This document shows, one piece after another, positions 51,544 through 62,233 of a stretch of 64,000 nucleotides of DNA (position 1 is its first letter; the number at the start of each line of letters is the position of its first letter). Position numbers and translations under genes: made by a program. The stretch comes from Roseivirga sp. E12. Its GTDB lineage: Bacteria; Bacteroidota; Bacteroidia; Cytophagales; Cyclobacteriaceae. Under the pieces are notes generated by a model that did not search any database, was not told the DNA's origin, and saw nothing but the letters and a program-made list of their open reading frames with translations. The stretch lies in contig NZ_JAGFMD010000001.1 in NCBI RefSeq assembly GCF_017592825.1, positions 1,364,001 through 1,428,000 on the forward strand, read 5' to 3'.

Positions 51544-51587
51544 TTAACATAAGTTTAACGTATTGACACTATTTTGAAACGATTAGT
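51544..51587 (+). promoter_or_regulatory. Weak TTAAC-type repeat array (site D)
   Basis: TTAAC at 51544 and 51555, TTGAC at 51563, TTGAA at 51574 and TTAGT at 51583 form a run resembling the arrays at 54212 and 59759, but with an 8-base step where those have 9 and more mismatches. It lies upstream of the small lipoprotein gene at 51678. No good -7 element follows at the expected distance. Confidence 0.35.
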
Positions 51588-51677: not shown

Positions 51678-52133
51678 ATGAAGAAATCTCTCAACCTTTG
51701 GATACTAGCTATAATACTGATTCAGGCCTGTTCGAATGAGGAGGACGCGCAACCTACATGCATTGCACCTCCCAGTTGTGGTCAGATTGTGCCAAATCAA
51801 GTGAATTTCACCATTTTTAATAGCACCACCTTAAACGTTTTGGGCTATAACGTAGTTAAATCGGCTTCCGACTTTGAAAGTGTACAGATCTCAGCTGGCG
51901 AGCTTCGATGCTGGCATAATTTTTCTCGTACTGATGTATCAACCTTAGAAATAACTTTAGGTGAAGGGGAAGATGATCAGAATGCCTTCAACATAAGTCT
52001 TGCGCTAAATCAGACCATCACTATTGAAGATGGTGAGACATATTGGGTAGATGTAAATCATCGGGACAATAGCTACATCGCCTCAATTTCCAAATATGAC
52101 CCGACTGTTTGCAACGATACCGTGGACAATTAG
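51678..52133 (+). CDS. Small lipoprotein of unknown function
   Basis: The 151-residue protein starts with MKKSLNLWILAIILIQACS, a lipoprotein signal with Cys18 as anchor. The mature part begins with a Cys-bearing linker (CIAPPSCGQ) followed by an apparent single beta-sandwich (VNFTIFNSTTLNVLGYNVVK, ISLALNQTITIEDGETYWVD). No catalytic motif is visible. It lies directly before the converging end of the first two-component system (one base apart) and downstream of a weak TTAAC-type array, so it may belong to that regulon. I do not recognise a family. Confidence 0.6.
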   Translation: MKKSLNLWILAIILIQACSNEEDAQPTCIAPPSCGQIVPNQVNFTIFNSTTLNVLGYNVVKSASDFESVQISAGELRCWHNFSRTDVSTLEITLGEGEDDQNAFNISLALNQTITIEDGETYWVDVNHRDNSYIASISKYDPTVCNDTVDN

Positions 52134-52823
52134 TCAATCCTCTAGGACAAACCCTTTGCCGTGTACATTGGTAATTTTCACCTGCGGATCTCGGCTCAGG
52201 TATTTGCGCAGTTTAGAAATAAACACGTCCATACTCCTCCGATTGAAATAGTCACTCTCTCCCCAAAGCTCTTTCAGAGTGGTTTGTCTATCTAGGATCT
52301 GACCCTTTCTCAAGCAAAGTTGCCTTAGAATTTCAGCCTCTTTGGAGGTGATAGTTTGTTTTTCCCCGTCAAAAATCAATGTTTGATTGGGGTAGTCAAA
52401 GCTGTATTGACCAATTTGATAGGTGATGGATTGACTTTCTTGCCTGTGCAAACCACTCCTTTTCACAATAGCATTAATCCTAGCGATCAATTCCTCCTCA
52501 TCCACAGGCTTAACTATATAGTCATCGGCACCTGCCTTGAAGCCTTTCAGTTTATCTATTTTCAAGGCTTTAGCCGTTAGAAATATCAACGGAACCTCTG
52601 GCGATCCTCGTTTAATCTTTTCTGCCAGCGTAAACCCATCCATTTTGGGCATCATCACATCAAGAAGGCAAAGATCGAACCTACTACTTTCAAAAGCATC
52701 GAGACCTTGCAAACCATCTTTTACCCAGGTCACTTTGAACTCATGCACCTGAAGATACTCCTTGAGAATATAACCAAGGTTATCATCGTCTTCAACCAAA
52801 AGAATACTGACTTTATCACTCAT
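52134..52823 (-). CDS. OmpR-family response regulator (system 1)
   Basis: The 229-residue protein has an N-terminal receiver with the acidic triad EDDD and phosphoacceptor Asp55 in LCLLDVMMPKMDGF. The conserved Thr/Lys region is FLTAKALKIDKLKGFKAGAD and DYIVKPVDEEEL. The C-terminal winged helix (ITSKEAEILRQLCLRKGQIL, then SMDVFISKLRKYLSRDPQVK) is of the OmpR/PhoB type, which binds direct repeats. It overlaps its kinase gene by one base. A paralogue at 56755-57438 is very similar throughout. TTAAC arrays upstream of neighbouring genes are its probable targets. Confidence 0.93.
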   Translation of the reverse strand: MSDKVSILLVEDDDNLGYILKEYLQVHEFKVTWVKDGLQGLDAFESSRFDLCLLDVMMPKMDGFTLAEKIKRGSPEVPLIFLTAKALKIDKLKGFKAGADDYIVKPVDEEELIARINAIVKRSGLHRQESQSITYQIGQYSFDYPNQTLIFDGEKQTITSKEAEILRQLCLRKGQILDRQTTLKELWGESDYFNRRSMDVFISKLRKYLSRDPQVKITNVHGKGFVLED

Positions 52824-54160
52824 TATCTTAATGGTAAATATATGTTGAACTCACTGCCCTCATTCTTTTTGCTGTTAAGGTTAATACCACCTTTATGCGC
52901 CTCAATCACACTTTTCACATAACTCAATCCTAAGCCAAAACCCTTTACATTGTGTAAATCACCAGAACCCGCTCTATAGAATTTATCAAAAATGAACTTC
53001 TGCACCTGCTCGCTCATTCCTATACCATTGTCTTTGATAATCAGTATAATACCCTCATCTGTGTTGGCGGTACTGACAACAATTTCTGGACGCTTTTCAG
53101 TATACTTCACGGCATTGTCCAAGAGATTGTATATGATGTTATTCAGGTGTGTTTCATCAGCGAAAATAGAGGCACTTTCCGCACTCAAATCAAGTGTCAA
53201 TTGACCTTTCTGTTCATTGATTATTAACTCAAAGTTCTTTGATACCCTTTCGATCAAATCATGAAGATTTAATTGTTTCTTATCCAACTTGAAATTACCA
53301 GAGTCGATAAGCGCCATTTGAAGAATTTTATCCACTTGGCTTTTTAACCGTTTGCCTTCATTGTCAATAAGTTCTGTGTATTTCAATAGACGCGCAGACT
53401 GTTTTACTTCTTCCGATTTCCGCAATAAACCCGAAGCCAATGAAATAGAGAAAATGGGCGTTTTAAACTCATGGGTGAGATTATTGATGAAATCGTTCTT
53501 TAGATCGGATAACTTCTTCTGCTTGTTAATGGTGATGACGGTATAGGAAAAAGCCGCAATAAGAATCAACAAAAGCAACAACGAAGTTCTAAGCAAGGGT
53601 CCGTTTTCACCCACAAACCCACCTAGCTCATTTGGATAATCTATACTCACATCTAATGCCGTATACTCACCTGCTCCATGTTGACCATGCCCCATCCCCA
53701 CATTTGGTCCACAGAGACACATAAAATTGTCATGATCTACTATCTCAGTAATCCTAGGGTTACTCTCCTTCTCTTGCTCATCAGAGTAAAAAAAGCAGCG
53801 CCTATCTTGCCCCATGATTACCTTAAGCTCGTAATCAATATTCAACTTATTAAGATCGAAGACAGCATCGATATTCTTCTTTAAGTTCATAAGGATTTGA
53901 TCGTCAGGAGCATCTTCAAATGACTCAATAACGAAGTATTTTTCTGGCCCCTTATATGAATTCACCAGATCTCTTAAGGTTTTATCTTTTCGAATAGCAC
54001 TTTGCATATCGCTGATATACTCAGGCACCAGCAGTTTGAATTGTTGTTGATAGACCTCAACATCTGCTCTAATCAGCTTGAGCTGTACATTGATCAATCC
54101 AATGACGGAAAGGGCCACGGCTCCTATTACTATATATATGGTCAATCTTGAGAGCTGCAC
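52823..54160 (-). CDS. Sensor histidine kinase (system 1) with Cys/His-bearing periplasmic loop
   Basis: The 445-residue kinase has membrane helices near residues 8-27 and 190-210 enclosing a sensor domain of about 160 residues. No HAMP domain is apparent. The cytoplasmic part has the H-box NLTHEFKTPI with His230, then the N-box NIIYNLLDNAVKY, DNGIGM and GFGLGLSY. The sensor ends with FMCLCGPNVGMGHGQHGAG, including Cys148, Cys150, Met156, His158 and His161, plus Cys122 earlier. These are plausible metal or redox ligands. The divergent gene encodes a rhodanese with a Cys-rich metal-binding-like motif, which fits metal or sulfur stress. That link is inference. Confidence 0.92.
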   Translation of the reverse strand: MQLSRLTIYIVIGAVALSVIGLINVQLKLIRADVEVYQQQFKLLVPEYISDMQSAIRKDKTLRDLVNSYKGPEKYFVIESFEDAPDDQILMNLKKNIDAVFDLNKLNIDYELKVIMGQDRRCFFYSDEQEKESNPRITEIVDHDNFMCLCGPNVGMGHGQHGAGEYTALDVSIDYPNELGGFVGENGPLLRTSLLLLLILIAAFSYTVITINKQKKLSDLKNDFINNLTHEFKTPIFSISLASGLLRKSEEVKQSARLLKYTELIDNEGKRLKSQVDKILQMALIDSGNFKLDKKQLNLHDLIERVSKNFELIINEQKGQLTLDLSAESASIFADETHLNNIIYNLLDNAVKYTEKRPEIVVSTANTDEGIILIIKDNGIGMSEQVQKFIFDKFYRAGSGDLHNVKGFGLGLSYVKSVIEAHKGGINLNSKKNEGSEFNIYLPLR

Positions 54161-54211
54161 GATAGGTGTATTTATTCGAAATTAAGGATAAGCGAATACA
54201 TTCTGAATCCC

Positions 54212-54257
54212 TTAACCTTTCATTAACACTTTTAACATGTCATTGACCAAGCTTAAC
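54212..54257 (+). promoter_or_regulatory. TTAAC direct-repeat array (site A)
   Basis: TTAAC starts at 54212, 54223, 54232 and 54253, and TTGAC starts at 54243, giving steps of 11, 9, 11 and 10 bases. This reads as tandem dimer sites with 11 bp within pairs and 20-21 bp between pairs. The array lies between the divergent kinase gene and the rhodanese gene, 79 bases from first repeat to the -7 element at 54291. The same geometry occurs at 59759. Confidence 0.75.
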
Positions 54258-54290
54258 ATAGCATTCGCCCTTTAGCCTTTTCCGAATAAA

Positions 54291-54298
54291 TAGTTTTG
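54291..54298 (+). promoter_or_regulatory. -7 element of the rhodanese operon
   Basis: TAGTTTTG matches TAnnTTTG and lies 22 bases before the start codon. No TTG occurs 19 bases upstream; the TTAAC array ends there instead, which suggests activator-dependent transcription. Confidence 0.65.
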
Positions 54299-54320
54299 AC
54301 AAAAACTTAAAACAACGAAA

Positions 54321-54902
54321 ATGAAAGCTCAAAAACGCAAAAACGCACTTGTGGTCATTGGTGTACTAATGGCACTTATTCTTTTTACTACCGAGTCTGT
54401 AACGGCCCAGGATAAAAAGCCCCACTATAAGTGCACACCCTGTGGTTGTAGTCAAGACGATGTTCTTGTTGCTGGTCCAGGAAACTGCTCAAGCTGTGGC
54501 ATGAAGTTGATCAACATACACAATCCCGATGAAGGTTTGGCTTATAATAATCTTAACAGCGCTCAAGTGTGTGAGTTACTTGAAAACAATCCAAATGTAA
54601 TACTCTTAGACGTGCGCTCTGAAGGTGAATTTACTCAAAAGACCAGTCAGATTGGAAGGTTTAAAAATGCTATTAACATTCCTGTAAATCAGATAGCCGA
54701 TCGACTGGACAAGCTGGGGCCATATCGTGAGAAAACTATACTTGTGTACTGCTCTATTAGCGCCAGAAGCCCAAGAGCCAGCGCGATACTAGCCGAGAAT
54801 GGCTTTACCAAAATCAAAAACCTAATGGGTGGACTGAACGCTTGGAATGAGCAATCGCTTGAGAAACTACCATGCAGAGATACACACACCACTAAACAAT
54901 AG
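54321..54902 (+). CDS. Exported rhodanese with Cys-rich heavy-metal-binding-like motif
   Basis: The 193-residue protein has a signal or anchor segment (NALVVIGVLMALILFTTESV). Residues about 37-63 carry YKCTPCGCSQDDVLVAGPGN followed by CSSCGMKL, a heavy-metal-binding-domain-like motif with six cysteines. A rhodanese domain follows (residues about 75-185) with ILLDVRSEGEFTQKTSQIG, the active-site loop VYCSISARSPRAS with Cys144, and MGGLNAWNE. Rhodaneses move sulfane sulfur. The fusion suggests handling of sulfur together with metal in the periplasm. Three bases separate it from the MOCOS-like gene, so they form an operon under the TTAAC array. Confidence 0.85.
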   Translation: MKAQKRKNALVVIGVLMALILFTTESVTAQDKKPHYKCTPCGCSQDDVLVAGPGNCSSCGMKLINIHNPDEGLAYNNLNSAQVCELLENNPNVILLDVRSEGEFTQKTSQIGRFKNAINIPVNQIADRLDKLGPYREKTILVYCSISARSPRASAILAENGFTKIKNLMGGLNAWNEQSLEKLPCRDTHTTKQ

Positions 54903-54905
54903 GCT

Positions 54906-56342
54906 ATGTTAGAACTGCTCAAAAGTATCTCCCGCATTGGCGAACAGATACTCCCAAAGAACCCCTATAAGTCCTTTATCAGTAAATATCCAGCATTCGA
55001 ACAGACTCTTCATATTGATGAATTAAGGTCAAGAGACTTCAAGCGTCTAGATGAACAGAAACATACTTATTTGGACTTTACAGGTGGGCAACTTTTTGGA
55101 GAAAGTCAGGTCAAAACACATCATGACTTTCTCTGCAACACCATCTTAGGCAATCCACACTCTATTAACCCCAGTTCTGCTCTTGCCGAGAAACACATTC
55201 AAGCTACTCGAAGAAAAGTGCTAGACTACTTTAATGCCCAAGAAGACTATATCTGTGTTTTCACATCCAATGCCTCAGCTGCTCTAAAAATCATTGGAGA
55301 ATGTTATCCTTTTGACCAAGAAGGAAGGTTCTTAATGACTTTCGACAATCACAACTCTGTAAATGGTCTTCGAGAGTTTGCCAGGAAAAAGAATTGTCCT
55401 TTTACATACAGCCCCTTGACTGAAGAACTGAGAATAGATGAGGAAAAGCTCAACTTAGAACTTTCTCGAAGGGGATTGAACAAGTTATTTGCTTTTCCTG
55501 CCCAGTCGAATGTATCGGGTGTTAAGCACGATCTCAGTTGGATTGAGAAAGCACAAGAGCAAGGTTGGGACGTTCTTTTGGATGCCGCTGCCTTTGTACC
55601 GAGTGATCGGTTGAATCTACAATTGCACCAACCCGAATTCGTCTCCCTGTCATTCTATAAAATCTTCGGCTATCCGACAGGTTTAGGTGCGCTTCTTATT
55701 AAAAAGACGGCTTATGACAAATTGCAAAAACCCTCTTTTGCTGGAGGCACCATTACCATTGTGAGTGTTCAGGGTGATGGTCACTACTTAGAAAAACAAG
55801 CTGCACGCTTTGAAGAGGGAACGGTGAATTATTTAGACATTCCGGCCATCAAATTCGGTCTGGAATATATTGAAGCGATAGGTATTTCAAGCATTAAAAA
55901 TAGGGTCAACTCCTTGACCGGGTATTTGATAGAAAAACTAGCGAGGCTAAAGCATGCTAATGGAAAACCCCTGATCCAAATATATGGACCCAGAAATATG
56001 AAAGACCGTGGTGGAACCATCGCCATGAATTTCTTTGACTCAGACGGGGCAATTCATGATTTTCTGTCTATTGAGCAAGAAGCCTTTGAACGTAACATAT
56101 CGATCCGAACAGGATGCTTTTGTAACCCAGGCATAGACGAAACCAATCATCAACTCAAAGCTGATAAACTCAAGGCCTATTTTAATAAAGACGGTCAGAA
56201 GGACTACTTTGACCTGATAGAGTTTATAGATCAAAAGAGAGGAGCAGTAAGAGTGTCTATTGGATATATCACCAACTTCACTGACCTTGAAATGTTTTTA
56301 CTCTTTTGTGAAACTTATCTAAATAAAAAAGTCGCTTTATAA
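54906..56342 (+). CDS. Class V aminotransferase fold, MOCOS-like cysteine desulfurase
   Basis: The 478-residue PLP enzyme resembles the N-terminal domain of eukaryotic molybdenum cofactor sulfurase. Landmarks are YLDFTGGQLFGESQV and GNPHSINPSSA near the start, FTSNASAALKIIGECYPF, and the PLP lysine Lys252 in SLSFYKIFGYPTGLGALL, almost the MOCOS wording. SIRTGCFCNPG carries Cys404 and Cys406. The C-terminal MOSC domain of MOCOS is absent. The likely activity is removal of sulfur from cysteine, perhaps passed to the co-encoded rhodanese or to molybdenum cofactor. A xanthine-oxidase-family molybdoenzyme at 16763-19406 could be a client, but this is inference. Confidence 0.8.
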   Translation: MLELLKSISRIGEQILPKNPYKSFISKYPAFEQTLHIDELRSRDFKRLDEQKHTYLDFTGGQLFGESQVKTHHDFLCNTILGNPHSINPSSALAEKHIQATRRKVLDYFNAQEDYICVFTSNASAALKIIGECYPFDQEGRFLMTFDNHNSVNGLREFARKKNCPFTYSPLTEELRIDEEKLNLELSRRGLNKLFAFPAQSNVSGVKHDLSWIEKAQEQGWDVLLDAAAFVPSDRLNLQLHQPEFVSLSFYKIFGYPTGLGALLIKKTAYDKLQKPSFAGGTITIVSVQGDGHYLEKQAARFEEGTVNYLDIPAIKFGLEYIEAIGISSIKNRVNSLTGYLIEKLARLKHANGKPLIQIYGPRNMKDRGGTIAMNFFDSDGAIHDFLSIEQEAFERNISIRTGCFCNPGIDETNHQLKADKLKAYFNKDGQKDYFDLIEFIDQKRGAVRVSIGYITNFTDLEMFLLFCETYLNKKVAL

Positions 56343-56360
56343 AGAATAAAGCGACTTTTT
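56326..56360. terminator. Bidirectional intrinsic terminator
   Basis: AAAAAGTCGCTTTA and TAAAGCGACTTTTT are perfect complements around a short loop. The stop codon of the MOCOS-like gene lies in the loop region. The A-run and T-run let it serve the converging small gene as well. Confidence 0.92.
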
Positions 56361-56381
56361 ATTGATTTGATTAGGCTAAGA

Positions 56382-56681
56382 TTAGTCTTCATTTGATTCT
56401 GTAGGAACCTGCTTGAGGCCTTCCTCAATGGCAGCTTTTTCCTCATCTGCTGACATTGGTGGTGGCGGTGTAAAAGAGGTGATTTCTTTTTTGACCGCTT
56501 CATATAATTCTTCACTCACGTGATCTGGAGCCTGAGCCTCTGCTACTTGCTCTTCGACAGAAGGAGCAGCTGGCTCCTCAACTTTATCTAGACCGGCTAG
56601 AAACTCTTGTTTTAACTCTTCAGTGGGTAGGCTATCGAGAATAATTTGTTTGTTCTCTTCTAAGCTCTCTTTTATTGCCAT
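56382..56681 (-). CDS. Small acidic protein of unknown function
   Basis: The 99-residue, strongly acidic, soluble protein has no signal peptide. It starts with a helix (MAIKESLEENKQIILDSLPT, then EELKQEFLAGLDKVEEP). A Pro/Ala/Glu-rich linker follows, with AAPSVEEQVAEAQAP and a TPPPPM stretch, and then a last helix (DEEKAAIEEGLKQV). The composition suggests a largely disordered protein with two helical ends. I do not recognise a family. It is monocistronic, converges on the MOCOS-like gene and lies downstream of the second two-component system. Confidence 0.6.
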   Translation of the reverse strand: MAIKESLEENKQIILDSLPTEELKQEFLAGLDKVEEPAAPSVEEQVAEAQAPDHVSEELYEAVKKEITSFTPPPPMSADEEKAAIEEGLKQVPTESNED

Positions 56682-56754
56682 AGTTTTTATGTGTTTAAAT
56701 TGACTTACTCTTAAAAATACTTAATTCAGCTCAAATCACAACAAAAAGATGCAC

Positions 56755-57438
56755 TTAAGCTTCCAACACAAAGCCTTTTCCATGGACATTGGTAATCTTA
56801 ACCGTAGGGTCCTGTTCTAGATATTTTCGGAGCTTATGAATAAAGACATCCATGCTCTTCCGATTGAAAAAATCGCTTTCTCCCCATACGGCTTTGAGGG
56901 CCAGATTACGATCAAGTACTTGATTCTTCTTATCACACAAAAGCTGAAGCAGTTTAGCTTCCTTTGTGGTAAGGCGCTGGGTTACTTCACCGTAAGACAA
57001 GGCTTGATTAGTAGAGTCGAATATGTAAAGACCAATTTCATAACTTGATCCTTCACTGTTACTCAAGGTTTCAATTCCAGTTCGCTTCATCAAAGCCTTA
57101 ACTCTTGCAATAAAGATTTCTTCATCAATGGGTTTCACAACAAAATCGTCACAGCCAAGTCTAAACCCTTTTAGCTTATCAATTTTCAAACTCTTTGCTG
57201 TTAAAAAAATGAATGGAACAGAACTATCATGTTCTTGAATTTCTTTGGCAAGGGTAAACCCATCTTTGAGTGGCATCATGATATCAAGTATACACAAATC
57301 ATATACTCCTCTCAGAAAGGCATCTAGACCAAGCTCTCCATTTTGAACCCAATCGACATTAAAGTCATTGATTTCGAGATACTCTTTCAAAATATAGCCG
57401 AAGCTATCATCATCTTCCACTAACAGAATTCTATTCAT
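56755..57438 (-). CDS. OmpR-family response regulator (system 2)
   Basis: The 227-residue paralogue of the regulator at 52134-52823 has the receiver acidic residues EDDD and phosphoacceptor Asp52 in LCILDIMMPLKDGF. FLTAKSLKIDKLKGFRLGCD precedes the switch Lys in DDFVVKPIDEE. The winged helix has LTTKEAKLLQLLCDKKNQVL and MDVFIHKLRKYLEQDPTVK. The DNA-binding parts of the two regulators are nearly the same (KITNVHGKGFVLE ends both), so they probably recognise similar sites. Two bases separate it from its kinase gene. Confidence 0.93.
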   Translation of the reverse strand: MNRILLVEDDDSFGYILKEYLEINDFNVDWVQNGELGLDAFLRGVYDLCILDIMMPLKDGFTLAKEIQEHDSSVPFIFLTAKSLKIDKLKGFRLGCDDFVVKPIDEEIFIARVKALMKRTGIETLSNSEGSSYEIGLYIFDSTNQALSYGEVTQRLTTKEAKLLQLLCDKKNQVLDRNLALKAVWGESDFFNRKSMDVFIHKLRKYLEQDPTVKITNVHGKGFVLEA

Positions 57439-57440
57439 AA

Positions 57441-58766
57441 CTATGTGAAAGGAAAATACATTCTAAATTCGCTACCTCTATTGATTTCACTGCTCAACCC
57501 AATCTTTCCGCTATGTGCTTCTATAATATTCTTTACGTAGCTAAGCCCTAAACCAAACCCCTTGACGTTGTGAACATTGCCTTTTTCAGCACGATAGAAT
57601 TTATCAAAAATATACTTTTGAATCTCCTCGCCTATACCAATACCGTTGTCTTTAATTGAGATCTCAATGCCATCTTCACTGTCTCTGGTTGTGATTGAAA
57701 TTATCGGTACATCAACGGTGTACTTCAATGCATTGTCAACCAAGTTGTATATAACATTGACCAAATGTGTTTCATCTGCCATCACCTCCGCTTGACTGGC
57801 TTTAAGGTCTAGTTCAATTTGACCTTGACGCTTGCTTACCACAAGGCTCATGCTTTCCACTACTCTCTTTATCGCTTCGTGAACATTGAGCAGTTTCTTA
57901 TTCAGAGAGAAGTTCCCTGAGTCTATCATGGCAATTTGCAAGACCTTATCTACTTGCCCTTCGAGCCTTTTGCCTTCATGTTCAATGAGATCCAAATAAT
58001 TGGCCTTCTTGACTTCATTTTCATCTACCGAATCACGTTTGAGCATGCTAGTGGCCAATGCAATTGAGGCAATTGGCGTTTTGAACTCATGGGTAAGGTT
58101 ATTGATGAAATCATTCTTGATGACAGATAGCTTTTTCTGCCTTTGGATGACAATCAGTGTATAGGCAAAACAGAACAATAAGAGCAATATGAAGACAATC
58201 GAAAGGATCAAAGCACCGCTTGACTGCGCAAAAACATAGGCGTTTTGACTTGGGAAAAACACGGCTAAATGATAGTCGCCATCCATATCCGTACCATTAG
58301 AACAGGTAAGCACCGTCCAAGAGTGACCTCTCTCATCGGGATTGGTACAATCTGTCAATTCAAAATCCAAACTTGTACCCTGATCGCCTAAAACAAAGTT
58401 GTAAATACCTTCTTTCCTTCTCGTTTCTGAATGCTCATAGATTGCATACTCATAAGGAAGGTCAAGGGAATAATCCTTAAAAACATCATCAATTAATGCT
58501 CTCATTTTGCCGTCAATGATGGGGTCATTGAACGCCCCCTTTTCTTTGACCCTCAGTGCAGATTGATGCAAAAGTTCTCCGTAGGTCTTATTCTTTGAAA
58601 ACTGTTCTCCAATGCCGACTGAGCACAGATCTACTTTTTGCAAGAAGATTTGTCTATTGGTCTCTATGGATGAATTGAGATTCCTAACCTGAATAACAGA
58701 AAGGCCTACCAATGCTATGGTAGCTAACCCCATGACTAACCCGATCGATCGCTTTGATAAATTCAT
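57441..58766 (-). CDS. Sensor histidine kinase (system 2)
   Basis: The 441-residue kinase is a paralogue of the one at 52823-54160. Membrane helices lie near residues 8-26 and 184-205, with a sensor loop of about 155 residues between them. The cytoplasmic part has NLTHEFKTPI with His226, NVIYNLVDNALKY, DNGIGI and GFGLGLSYVK. The cytoplasmic halves of the two kinases are close to identical in motif order, but the sensor loops differ. This one has Cys140, His148, Cys155 and His166 spread out (TDCTNPDERGHSW, TCSNGTDMDGDYH) and lacks the compact CLCG-GHGQH cluster. The pair therefore probably senses related but different signals. Confidence 0.92.
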   Translation of the reverse strand: MNLSKRSIGLVMGLATIALVGLSVIQVRNLNSSIETNRQIFLQKVDLCSVGIGEQFSKNKTYGELLHQSALRVKEKGAFNDPIIDGKMRALIDDVFKDYSLDLPYEYAIYEHSETRRKEGIYNFVLGDQGTSLDFELTDCTNPDERGHSWTVLTCSNGTDMDGDYHLAVFFPSQNAYVFAQSSGALILSIVFILLLLFCFAYTLIVIQRQKKLSVIKNDFINNLTHEFKTPIASIALATSMLKRDSVDENEVKKANYLDLIEHEGKRLEGQVDKVLQIAMIDSGNFSLNKKLLNVHEAIKRVVESMSLVVSKRQGQIELDLKASQAEVMADETHLVNVIYNLVDNALKYTVDVPIISITTRDSEDGIEISIKDNGIGIGEEIQKYIFDKFYRAEKGNVHNVKGFGLGLSYVKNIIEAHSGKIGLSSEINRGSEFRMYFPFT

Positions 58767-58814
58767 ACTGTTGTTAGATCGAAAATACGTGCTTTTGCAG
58801 TTTAATGTTAGAAT

Positions 58815-58850
58815 TTAACTTTTGCTTAACCATTTTAAATTATCCTTAAT
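58815..58850 (+). promoter_or_regulatory. TTAAC-type repeat array (site B)
   Basis: TTAAC at 58815 and 58826, TTAAA at 58835 and TTAAT at 58846 keep the 11-9-11 spacing of sites A and C. The array lies between the divergent kinase (system 2) and the TolB-like gene. The third pair is missing and the expected -7 element is weak (TACTTG near 58893), so activity is less certain here. Confidence 0.6.
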
Positions 58851-58901
58851 AGAACCCTTTGCGTAAACTGGAAGTGACAAAACAAAGGAAACTACTTGAA
58901 A

Positions 58902-59762
58902 ATGAAGTCACAGCTACTGATCTTCTTTCTGCTACTAATTAGTTTCAGAGTCACTGCCCAAAATTATAACGATCGATTCGCAGTAGTATCTCCTGATGGC
59001 AAGTCCATTGCATTTGAGTCGAACCGCGTCAGACCATCACATATTTTTACGGTCAACTTGGACGGAACTAACCTGAAGCAAATAACCCGAAAAGGAGGTT
59101 ACTCTGGTCCCAATTGGTCTCCAAATTCTCAGGCAATTAATTATTCAGAGATTAATAATGGTAGGTTTTTTCACGTATTCAAACATGACCTAAATGAGTC
59201 AGGGACCATCGAATTAGTTGCAGATTCATCATTGAACTTCGCCTCTGTGTGGAGAGATGATGTCATATATTATACATCAAATAGGGGAAAAGCAGATCAA
59301 CTGAGAAGGGTAAACATCAGGAGTAATGAAGACGAATTGATTGTTGAAAAAGTTGAGCATCATAATGGTATCTCTTTGAACCCTCAGGGAAACCTGGCCA
59401 TTATTATTGTTAAAAATGAAGGCAACAACTGGGACTTGGGGCTACTAGATATAGACAAGAAAAAGATAGTCCAAGAGTTCCATCATGCTGCTCGAGAAGA
59501 CTCTCCCAGTTGGTCCCCCAAAGGCGATCGTATCCTTTTCAGTTCAAATAGAACGGGTAACTGGGATATCTTTTCGATGAAATGGAATGGCAGTGACGTC
59601 ACAAACCTTACCCAAGGAAAAGGGAACAACCGTTTTGCTTCATGGTTTCCTATGGGAGAAAGAGTACTCTTCTCCTCTGATCGTGATGGCAATGGTTTCC
59701 GGCTTTACACTATGAATAAGGATGGAAGTAATCAGAGTGAGATTAAAATCTCAGAAAATTAA
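58902..59762 (+). CDS. Exported TolB/WD40-like beta-propeller protein
   Basis: The 286-residue protein has a signal peptide (LLIFFLLLISFRVTAQN) and then propeller blades of the TolB C-terminal type. The blades include RFAVVSPDGKSIAFESNRVR, GPNWSPNSQAINYSE, DSPSWSPKGDRILFSSNRTG and FASWFPMGERVLFSSDRDG. About six blades are present, with no peptidase domain. Such proteins often act as binding scaffolds in the periplasm. I prefer the ATG to a TTG two codons upstream. It is divergent from the second two-component system and lies downstream of site B, so it is a likely regulon member. The TTAAC array of the next gene begins at its stop codon. Confidence 0.8.
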   Translation: MKSQLLIFFLLLISFRVTAQNYNDRFAVVSPDGKSIAFESNRVRPSHIFTVNLDGTNLKQITRKGGYSGPNWSPNSQAINYSEINNGRFFHVFKHDLNESGTIELVADSSLNFASVWRDDVIYYTSNRGKADQLRRVNIRSNEDELIVEKVEHHNGISLNPQGNLAIIIVKNEGNNWDLGLLDIDKKKIVQEFHHAAREDSPSWSPKGDRILFSSNRTGNWDIFSMKWNGSDVTNLTQGKGNNRFASWFPMGERVLFSSDRDGNGFRLYTMNKDGSNQSEIKISEN

Positions 59763-59815
59763 CTACTTATTAACCATTTTAATTTTTCGATAAACAAGCT
59801 TAACTCCCCATTAAT
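59759..59815 (+). promoter_or_regulatory. TTAAC direct-repeat array (site C)
   Basis: TTAAC at 59759, 59770 and 59800, TTAAT at 59779 and 59811, and a degenerate ATAAA at 59790 give steps of 11, 9, 11, 10 and 11. This is three 11-bp pairs spaced 20 and 21 bp. The first repeat lies 79 bases from the -7 element at 59838, exactly as in site A. The first repeat overlaps the stop codon of the TolB-like gene. Confidence 0.75.
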
Positions 59816-59837
59816 CGACCCTTGGCCTGACCCACCG

Positions 59838-59845
59838 TATGTTTG
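59838..59845 (+). promoter_or_regulatory. -7 element of the permease gene
   Basis: TATGTTTG matches TAnnTTTG and lies 16 bases before the chosen ATG. No TTG is found 19 bases upstream, where the TTAAC array ends. The alternative TTG start at 59843 lies inside this element, which argues against it. Confidence 0.65.
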
Positions 59846-59860
59846 AACAAACACAGCCCA

Positions 59861-62233
59861 ATGGTCAAAATATTTATCAACCTACTGATCAGAAATTTTC
59901 TAAAGAACAAGCTTCTTAATAGCCTTAACGTGATTGGTCTATCGCTGGGTCTCATTGCAGCAAGCTTGATTATCTTATATGCTGATCATGAACTGAGCTA
60001 TGATGGTCATTACTCAGATGCTAAGAATATCTATCGTTTTGAAGGTAGAACCAACTCGCCCAATTGGTCTTCCAATTTAGGGTTCGAACACGGTAGAGCC
60101 CTAAAGTCTGGTAACTATCCTGAAATCAAAAACATTGTTCAGGTTAACAATCAGGGTGAATCATACATTTCTTTTGAAGGACGCAGGTTCGTAGAAAAAA
60201 ACATCAAACTTGTAGCTCCTGGATCCGACTTTCTTGAGTTATTCGACTTCGAACTGCTGGAGCAATCTAGGAAAGATCCATTGACCGCACCATACGCTGC
60301 GATCATTACTAAATCCACTGCGCGGAAGTATTTTGGTCAAAACTTAGCAGTCGGAAAAGCTCTAAAATATGATTCTCTCTATTTGACGATAGCTGCGGTT
60401 ATAGAAGACCTGCCAAGTAACACTCACTTGGAATTCGACATTCTTTACACTAACCCAGCTTCTTTTAGCAATACTCACTTCCATACCAATACCTACTTAA
60501 AACTTACTGACAAAGCAGAGCCTGGACAATTAGAGACTAAAATATTGGATATGGAAGGTGTAGCAACTGACGAGTTTCATAAGCTATCGGAGGTGAAGCT
60601 AATGCCAATTCAAAATATCTATTATGATTCGCAAGCGGGATTTGGTGCGGGCGGCAAAGGAGACAAGCTTCAGCTTACACTGTTCATAGTCATTGGACTA
60701 CTCATTCTCTTAATAGCGATTACCAATTACATTAACCTCTCTCTTGCTGTCTATTCTGGGAAACGTTTGGAATTCGGTATGAGGAAAGTTCTTGGCGAAG
60801 GGCGCGCACAACTAACGAAAAACTTATTTCTAGAATCTTTAAGTATTTCGTTGCTGACCATTCCACTAACACTTATTGGTATAAAGTTTACTTTGCCCAT
60901 CTTCAACGACTTTATGGGGTTGACCATTGAGAACAACTTGCTGGTTGATCCACTCTATTGGTTTTTAGGCTTAGCGTTTCTAGGCGTTCTAAGCGGCATC
61001 ACAGTCATTAATCCAACCATTACATTAGCCAAAATCAAGACCACAGATTTATTAAAGAGTAAAAATTCGGCACACACCAGCGGTGGAATCAAACTGCGTA
61101 ACGTGCTCGTATTCTCACAATTCATCTTGCTCTTTACACTGGGTATTTCCGCCTGGTTAATGAATCGTCAAATCCGCTATTTGGATTCCAAAGACATGGG
61201 TTTTAAGGCAGATAGAATAATCAAAATCACAAATGCCTTTGACATCGGAGGTATGGACGTCTACCAGATCTATAAGACTAAACTCCTTACATATCCGCAA
61301 ATCGGTGGTGTTTCATTTGGCCCGATGATGGGTGATGGGATGTCACCCATGGCCTACAAACCAGAAGGACAAGATGAGGTTTTTGAAAACCTTCTCTCCT
61401 ATGGAGTCGACATTGACTACTTCGATGTAATGGGGATGGAAATCTTACAAGGTGACTTTAAAGATGTACTACTTGCCTCTGAAGCTGGCCAGGTAATCTC
61501 ACTTGTCAATCAGAATTTTATTAACAAGTTCGGATGGCAGGATGACCCTATTGGCAAGAAAATCATACTTAGGCCCGGAAGCGAAAACGAACTTAACCGA
61601 AAGGTCTCTTCTGTTTTTAAAGACTTCCACTTTTTCAGTCTCAAGGAAAGAATCACTCCTCAAATCATTTCGTTAACGCCTCAACCACAATTCGTAAACA
61701 CCAATATCCTTGTCAAAGCAAATAACTATGACCTCAAATCAGTCGTAGAGATAATGGAAACCGAATGGACTGTTTTAAACCCCGAAATACCCATGCAATT
61801 CGACTTTATGGATGATGCGGTTAAACGACTTTATATCCAAGAAAAACGCACCGGACAGATCAGCATTATTTTCTCGATTCTCGCAGTGCTTCTTTCGTTA
61901 CTGGGATTGGTTGGCTTTATGTTTTATGTAATTGGTTTGAAGTCTAAAGAAATAGCCATTAGAAAAGTTCTTGGAGCCTCGCTCCTCCAAATAGTAACTC
62001 TTCTCAATCGACAACTTTTTCTAATAATACTGTTGGCCGCAATTATAGGTAGTGGGCTTAGCTACTGGCTTATTGATACTTGGCTGCGCGATTACGCCTA
62101 TTCTATTGAAGTGGCTCCAGGCACCTTCGTTTTGGCGGCCATAATTGTCTATTCTATCGTTTTTCTAATTACATGTTTCCAGTCCTTCAAGTCGGCTTTG
62201 TTCAACCCTTCAATGGCTTTAAAAAATGAGTAA
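59861..62233 (+). CDS. MacB/FtsX-type ABC transporter permease
   Basis: The 790-residue protein has the layout of the large Bacteroidota FtsX-like permeases. An N-terminal helix (LNVIGLSLGLIAASLIILYA) is followed by a MacB-like periplasmic domain (DHELSYDGHYSDAKNIYRF, then KSTARKYFG, and LPSNTHLEFDIL). Helices and an FtsX domain (EFGMRKVLGEGRAQLTKNLF) come next, then a second periplasmic domain and a final FtsX domain (AIRKVLGASLLQIVTLLNRQ). No ATPase gene is adjacent. MacB-type permeases drive mechanical work on periplasmic substrates rather than classical transport. Transcription is probably activated through site C. Confidence 0.88.
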   Translation: MVKIFINLLIRNFLKNKLLNSLNVIGLSLGLIAASLIILYADHELSYDGHYSDAKNIYRFEGRTNSPNWSSNLGFEHGRALKSGNYPEIKNIVQVNNQGESYISFEGRRFVEKNIKLVAPGSDFLELFDFELLEQSRKDPLTAPYAAIITKSTARKYFGQNLAVGKALKYDSLYLTIAAVIEDLPSNTHLEFDILYTNPASFSNTHFHTNTYLKLTDKAEPGQLETKILDMEGVATDEFHKLSEVKLMPIQNIYYDSQAGFGAGGKGDKLQLTLFIVIGLLILLIAITNYINLSLAVYSGKRLEFGMRKVLGEGRAQLTKNLFLESLSISLLTIPLTLIGIKFTLPIFNDFMGLTIENNLLVDPLYWFLGLAFLGVLSGITVINPTITLAKIKTTDLLKSKNSAHTSGGIKLRNVLVFSQFILLFTLGISAWLMNRQIRYLDSKDMGFKADRIIKITNAFDIGGMDVYQIYKTKLLTYPQIGGVSFGPMMGDGMSPMAYKPEGQDEVFENLLSYGVDIDYFDVMGMEILQGDFKDVLLASEAGQVISLVNQNFINKFGWQDDPIGKKIILRPGSENELNRKVSSVFKDFHFFSLKERITPQIISLTPQPQFVNTNILVKANNYDLKSVVEIMETEWTVLNPEIPMQFDFMDDAVKRLYIQEKRTGQISIIFSILAVLLSLLGLVGFMFYVIGLKSKEIAIRKVLGASLLQIVTLLNRQLFLIILLAAIIGSGLSYWLIDTWLRDYAYSIEVAPGTFVLAAIIVYSIVFLITCFQSFKSALFNPSMALKNE

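Follow-up and report, generated by a model that had tools for sequence, protein, structure and literature searches.

TTAACA-like repeats about 11 bp apart form the PhoP box of Bacillus subtilis, which belongs to a different phylum and regulator group from the RprY-like systems of Bacteroidota and resembles, in core word and spacing, the repeat arrays described here from a 64,000-nucleotide stretch of Roseivirga sp. E12 (the window; contig NZ_JAGFMD010000001.1, positions 1,364,001 to 1,428,000). Dimeric binding to head-to-tail direct repeats is common among OmpR-family regulators; C. difficile RR_1586, for example, binds a direct repeat of an 11-nucleotide unit as a head-to-tail dimer (PMC6222199). 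In Bacteroidota, DNA affinity purification sequencing of PhoP, the OmpR-family regulator of the Riemerella anatipestifer PhoPR system, gave a motif with the core TTTAACA, binding upstream of its own operon, and 50 candidate direct targets that include GLPGLI proteins, a TonB-dependent receptor, an outer-membrane beta-barrel protein, and ABC transporters (PMC9603813; an earlier paper on this regulator is PMC5399024). RprY of Porphyromonas gingivalis binds its own promoter in an electrophoretic mobility shift assay (PMC3646045).

The window contains three arrays of direct TTAAC repeats (A, B, and C; Table 1) beside two kinase-regulator pairs, HK1-RR1 and HK2-RR2, and we infer from the sequence that they are very probably operators bound by the RprY-like OmpR-family regulators encoded alongside them. 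Array A reads TTAAC at 54212, 54223, 54232, and 54253 and TTGAC at 54243, with TTCGC at the place of a sixth half-site (54264); array B reads TTAAC at 58815 and 58826, TTAAA at 58835, and TTAAT at 58846; array C reads TTAAC at 59759, 59770, and 59800, TTAAT at 59779 and 59811, and ATAAA at 59790 (alternatively TAAAC at 59791). All three place repeats on the same strand, at a spacing of about 10-11 bp and close to a promoter, as OmpR/PhoB-family operators do. The start of a minus-strand histidine kinase gene lies about 50 bp downstream of A (HK1) and of B (HK2); A is also upstream of plus-strand rhodanese and aminotransferase genes, and C is upstream of a MacB/FtsX-type permease gene. An earlier note on this DNA had described A and C, and on rechecking its repeat coordinates and promoter-element positions are all correct, as is the distance of 79 bp from the first repeat to an exact TAnnTTTG in both. 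Its identical steps in A and C hold if the degenerate third and fourth copies of C are counted and not otherwise, and the absence of TTG between array and element is true of A but not of C, where TTG occurs at 59822, 16 bp before the element. Array B falls within the range it covered (54212..59845) and was not used in its claim.

RR1 and RR2 both have Receiver and Trans_reg_C domains, in agreement with the two OmpR/PhoB-family regulators noted earlier at the locus. Among the 11 Trans_reg_C proteins of the genome are two further regulators of this kind, RR3 (C33:229068) and RR4 (C33:95785). The best NCBIfam model for all four is RprY (NF051850), the model family of P. gingivalis RprY, which has itself lost its kinase partner; because their scores of 274-331 bits (330.5 for RR3, 273.7 for RR4; RR1 and RR2 in Table 1) all fall short of the equivalog cut-off of 370 bits, they are named RprY-like, not RprY. 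The four have in common the helix segment F-N-[AR]-[RK]-S-M-D-V-[FY]-I-x-K-L-R-K, which in this family is the recognition helix. TTAAC arrays occur upstream of the kinase in all four pairs, with steps of 11-9-11-10 for RR1, 11-9-11 for RR2 (six positions in relatives), 10-10-11 for RR3, and 10-10 for RR4; the flanking T and A that would extend TTAAC to the Riemerella PhoP core TTTAACA vary between copies at the HK1-HK4 promoters.

Such arrays are rare in the genome. A search of 4,701,246 bases for four TTAAC words at offsets 0/11/20/31, allowing up to 3 mismatches in the 20 specified bases, gave 6 forward and 0 reverse matches, against 1 and 0 for the reversed pattern. Arrays A, B, and C (scoring 19, 18, and 17 out of 20) are three of the six, all within 5.6 kb, and a fourth (C33:231352) is just upstream of the third paralogous pair, HK3-RR3; the other two may be chance matches: the one at C11:991832, with two mismatches, precedes a gene of 301 aa, DUF58-like in appearance, and the one at C29:5867, with three, precedes a surface-protein-like gene. 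An order-3 Markov simulation (2 Mb, one strand) produced no site of at least 17/20 and 3 sites at 16. The 10-10 triple, with up to one mismatch, occurs at HK4, HK3, and C1:168566 (the HK4 site, read on its other strand, accounts for a fourth row), against 0 in the control.

The arrays are conserved together with the regulator genes. Among 19 genomes of the genus, HK1 is present in eight, as is HK2 with the permease, and the array stands at the same place in 8/8 loci in both cases; HK3 (with RR3) and its 10-10-11 array occur in 19/19, and the 10-10 triple of HK4 in both genomes examined for it. A phylum-wide set was formed from the best 80 of 585 RprY-family candidates, and so leans to close relatives of RR3; record titles place these loci in Bacteroidota, except L171 (uncultured bacterium), L177 (labelled Clostridiales), and L193 (labelled Chlorobiota). 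The enrichment test used 77 of the 80, setting aside L169 and L179, which lacked a kinase start, and L146, which has no kinase upstream. In 34 of the 77, the kinase strand carries an exact GTTAA pair at a spacing of 10 or 11 bp no further than 150 bp from the kinase start, whereas 500 dinucleotide shuffles gave 0.19 such loci on average and 2 at most. The full series of -40, -50, -60, and -71 is present in Flavobacteriales (L155), Sphingobacteriales (L170), and Cyclobacteriaceae (L147), and a Bacteroides locus (L161) has copies at -42, -52, and -73. In Roseivirga's own family, 18 of 20 kinase loci (HK2 of this genome and one same-genus HK3 locus included) have a pair at 9-11 bp, whereas PhoB-type regulators of the order have one in 2 of 30 upstream regions; this control looked in front of the regulator gene rather than the kinase. 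In these comparisons the arrays track the RprY-like subfamily. Two broader descriptions were rejected: a two-strand pattern, by the absence of pairs on the strand opposite the kinase (0/77), and a general property of OmpR-family regulators, by the PhoB-type control with its regulator-gene regions.

The arrays also keep a fixed distance from TAnnTTTG, the -7 promoter element of Bacteroidota. On the kinase side, exact elements lie 32-34 bp from where the proximal GTTAA begins in 25 of 28 cases (32 bp in 18, 33 in five, 34 in two); in this genome the distance is 32 bp for HK1 and HK2, with one mismatch each, and 33 bp for HK3 and HK4. On the divergent side, the element is 27 bp from the last half-site position in A and C (exact), in 19/19 HK3 loci (7 exact, 12 with one mismatch), and in 2/2 HK4 loci (one mismatch). 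In Flavobacterium psychrophilum TAnnTTTG spans -12 to -5 (PMC9723704); with this numbering the divergent-side position is -39 to -35 and the kinase-side half-site about -44 to -40, so the two registers are about half a helical turn apart.

This configuration suggests a mechanism in which each TTAAC would be a half-site core, a head-to-tail dimer would bind two half-sites spaced 10-11 bp apart, and two to three dimers per array would stack at steps of about 20 bp along the same face of the helix, with a promoter to either side. Towards the kinase, the closest half-site (GTTAA when read on the kinase strand), starting 32 bp before a TAnnTTTG-like element, would serve autoregulation; on the divergent side, where the last half-site position is 27 bp before the TAnnTTTG of the target, a class-II activator at about -39 to -35 could replace the missing -33 element. 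RR1 would use A, for its own operon and the rhodanese operon, and RR2 would use B for its own operon and C for the permease. Arrays A and B are most likely autoregulatory operators of RR1 and RR2, with A probably serving the rhodanese operon as well and C the permease. Autoregulation at the kinases' own promoters, which the earlier note did not mention, appears from these comparisons to be the more widely conserved role. That note had read the arrays as activator sites of one or both local regulators: genus conservation, density well above random, and the tracking of the subfamily support the assignment to local OmpR/PhoB-family regulators, while activation is something we still infer.

Half-site spacing differs between groups of these regulators. 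We assembled 135 kinase-regulator entries (37 from the genus, 73 phylum-wide, and 25 from the family), of which 87 entered a spacing tree; an automatic rule left out 39 without an exact pair and nine with a 9-bp pair, which in L098 and L250 looks like the inter-dimer link of an 11-9-11-type array. The exact proximal pair is at 10 bp in 61 of the 87 and at 11 bp in 26. Regulators with the helix FNARSMDVY have 10 bp in 56 cases and 11 bp in two, and those with other helices 10 bp in five and 11 bp in 24. On a quick maximum-likelihood tree the spacing label changes 3 times, against a shuffled mean of 22.7 (0/500 shuffles as low), a statistic inflated by close copies in the tree. The few changes indicate that clade and spacing are linked; a causal role of spacing in specificity does not follow, and gene and promoter may simply have been inherited together instead.

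In 63 of the 87 entries an element (TA and at least three of TTTG) lies within 26-39 bp, and in 38 of these, near-copies from one genus included, its T precedes by 12 or 13 bp the start codon that comes first in the kinase open reading frame (ORF); the kinase mRNA is therefore predicted to have little or no leader. HK1 and HK2, with the element 24 and 21 bp from the start, do not fit this pattern. Leaderless mRNAs make up 5.5% in F. psychrophilum (PMC9723704). Loci with TAnnTTTG 12 bp upstream of the first kinase start codon include L134, L136, L138, L139, L143, L147, L150, L155, L170, L183, and others.

A wider proposal is offered tentatively, as a possibility that is on balance doubtful when its three parts are taken jointly. 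RprY-like regulators of Bacteroidota would share an ancient operator code in which the TTAAC half-site was kept across diverged paralogs; the paralogs would obtain specificity through spacing (10-10-11 in the FNARSMDVY group, 11-9-11 in the RR1/RR2 group) and not through half-site letters; and the array would be two-faced, with 32-33 bp to the -7 element of the kinase and 27 bp to that of the target. This difference of about half a helical turn would let the same bound dimers act differently on the regulator's own promoter (often predicted leaderless) and on the divergent one.

Several observations weigh against arrays A-C being operators of the RprY-like regulators, or limit how far this explanation reaches. 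An exact 10/11-bp pair is absent from 43 of the 77 RprY-family loci, many of them from Prevotella or Muribaculaceae and some with 9-bp pairs. Among the seven other Trans_reg_C proteins of the genome, L130 and L131 have one upstream GTTAA pair at 10-bp spacing (1298-1312 and 1379-1393, respectively); both are winged-helix proteins with Trans_reg_C near the N-terminus of a short ORF. A scan of 60 genomes of the family for TTAACN5-6TTAACN4-6TTAAC gave 102 matches (39 for the reversed pattern), merged to 72 places, of which 23 are within 1.5 kb of an RprX-like kinase match and 49 are not. Of the 11 four-copy arrays selected in front of other genes, no more than 4 have an element at 27 bp with up to one mismatch. 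Activation is also not the sole possible sign, since P. gingivalis RprY has been proposed to be a repressor (PMC3646045).

Different explanations of the arrays can be set against these data. The TTAAC core is common to all four systems, and RR3, unlike HK1 and HK2, is in 19/19 genomes of the genus, as would be expected if the arrays were bound mainly by RR3 or RR4, coordinating four systems with RR1 and RR2 as targets or co-binders; this is nevertheless unlikely, because spacing differs by clade (11 bp in the RR1/RR2 type, 10 bp for RR3/RR4) and, within the genus, arrays A-C occur where HK1 and HK2 occur. Binding by an unrelated regulator, or a structural feature such as phased A-tracts with an incidental RprY-like neighbourhood, would suit the A+T-rich, helically phased words but is very improbable given the exact word and strand orientation (other strand 0/77), the enrichment at RprY-like loci, and the near-absence at PhoB-type loci (2/30). 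Chance clustering in A+T-rich intergenic DNA, which the earlier note named as something that would refute its reading, has the least claim and a negligible probability: single 16-bp pairs with one mismatch are indeed common in the window (11 versus 5.85 expected; 4/100 shuffles reach as many) and prove nothing, but four-half-site arrays are far above the Markov simulation, the reversed pattern, and the shuffled upstream regions, and conservation at orthologous places and the enrichment already refute it. Binding by the RprY-like regulators encoded alongside is the explanation we favour.

GTTAA pairs at 9 bp were seen at L152, L153, L164, L166, L173, L202, and L206, mostly Prevotella-type, and are perhaps a lineage-specific operator variant. 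In the family scan, a homolog of HK1-HK4 lies within 11 of the 30 loci fetched. The 49 places away from RprX-like kinases include HK4-type loci and the 11 four-copy arrays, which were chosen by eye and are no sample of a regulon; since 49 is close to the control count, a wide regulon is unsupported. These four-copy arrays lie near ECF sigma-factor genes (L318, L320, and L322, from Pfam), before Porph_ging/GLPGLI-type proteins (L319 and L325, Pfam), before FtsX-type permease-like genes (L323 and L326, by eye), and before a DUF2911 gene (L327, Pfam); three of the 11 have no clear gene assignment. A GIN-domain (DUF2807) protein adjoins the L318 array (Pfam), with a look-alike, judged by eye, near that of L322. 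The recurring permeases and GLPGLI-type genes fit an envelope role.

The half-site core and autoregulation are not new in kind: both have been published for Riemerella PhoP, and P. gingivalis RprY binds its own promoter. The likeness to Riemerella PhoP, in core and own-operon binding, is taken from the published description, and array geometry, register to the -7 element, and clade spacing were not found in the available part of that report (PMC9603813). A binding motif for P. gingivalis RprY was found neither in the available part of PMC3646045 nor by a term search of PMC6032018; in the open-access literature we found no binding site for RprY itself, and no account of a fixed-register array, its phylum-wide place before RprY-like pairs, or the clade-linked 10/11-bp split. 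The arrays are best seen as new members of the OmpR-family direct-repeat operators, spacing and the two-register model being the part that invites testing. They differ from OmpR/PhoB-family direct-repeat operators in general, such as that of C. difficile RR_1586, in having two to three predicted dimer sites in series, placed between two promoters at a fixed distance to each. As RprXY-type pairs occur across Bacteroidota, a likely binding site for a widespread, little-studied regulator family can now be tested, and a fixed-register operator may allow regulon prediction in gut, soil, and marine Bacteroidota. The operator would link RprXY-type systems to envelope genes (FtsX-type permeases, GLPGLI proteins, and ECF sigma factors), and paralogs with one half-site but different spacing would provide a clean test of insulation between duplicated two-component systems.

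The surroundings of B and C amount to a natural experiment on the half-sites needed by each promoter. In G001, the nearest relative by HK1 identity (89%), HK2 and the permease are separated by a single array, which is identical to B over its first 24 bases and to C over a 39-base run from +11. In the present genome (G000) B and C are separated by a PD40 gene whose stop codon falls within the first TTAAC of C, and in G012 (L097) the PD40 gene is likewise flanked by two arrays. In G000 and G012 alike, the copy next to the kinase no longer has the half-sites at +41 and +52 and retains exact TTAAC at 0 and +11, while the copy next to the permease retains 0, +11, +41, and +52 at 4 or 5 of 5 bases, as expected if each promoter needs its own nearest dimers. 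The PD40 gene may have arrived by insertion with duplication, or been lost elsewhere by recombination between arrays.

Table 1. Arrays, predicted promoter elements, and genes at the locus (window coordinates)
Feature	Position	Strand	Remarks
Array A	54212..54257	+	Five TTAAC-type half-sites, steps 11-9-11-10; between HK1 (minus) and rhodanese operon (plus)
Array B	58815..58850	+	Four half-sites, steps 11-9-11; before HK2 (minus) and PD40 gene (plus)
Array C	59759..59815	+	Six half-sites, third and fourth degenerate; before permease
TAGTTTTG, predicted -7 element of rhodanese operon	54291..54298	+	Exact TAnnTTTG; 27 bp after sixth half-site place (54264)
TATGTTTG, predicted -7 element of permease gene	59838..59845	+	Exact TAnnTTTG; 27 bp after last half-site (59811)
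TAATTTCG, predicted -7 element of HK1-RR1	54177..54184	-	One mismatch; 32 bp after proximal GTTAA start
TATTTTCG, predicted -7 element of HK2-RR2	58780..58787	-	One mismatch; 32 bp after proximal GTTAA start
RR1, OmpR-family response regulator, RprY-like	52134..52823	-	NF051850, 283.7 bits (cut-off 370)
HK1, histidine kinase	52823..54160	-	
RR2, OmpR-family response regulator, RprY-like	56755..57438	-	NF051850, 274.4 bits (cut-off 370)
HK2, histidine kinase	57441..58766	-	
Rhodanese-domain protein, cysteine-rich N-terminal part, proposed target of array A	54321..54902	+	
PD40 beta-propeller protein	58896..59762	+	Between HK2 and permease in G000 and G012 among 8 genus loci
MacB_PCD/FtsX-type permease, proposed target of array C	59843..62233	+	

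The annotated start of the permease is a TTG; an ATG at 59861 is, by eye, the likelier candidate. The rhodanese gene is followed after 3 bp by an aminotransferase class-V gene (at 54906), and its product carries, past the signal region, a cysteine-rich segment (YKCTPCGC...CSSCGMKL) that is metal-binding in appearance. Elsewhere in the window, at 51544-51567, a TTAAC pair 11 bp apart with a TTGAC 8 bp further on precedes a small gene at 51678; its geometry differs from that of the arrays.

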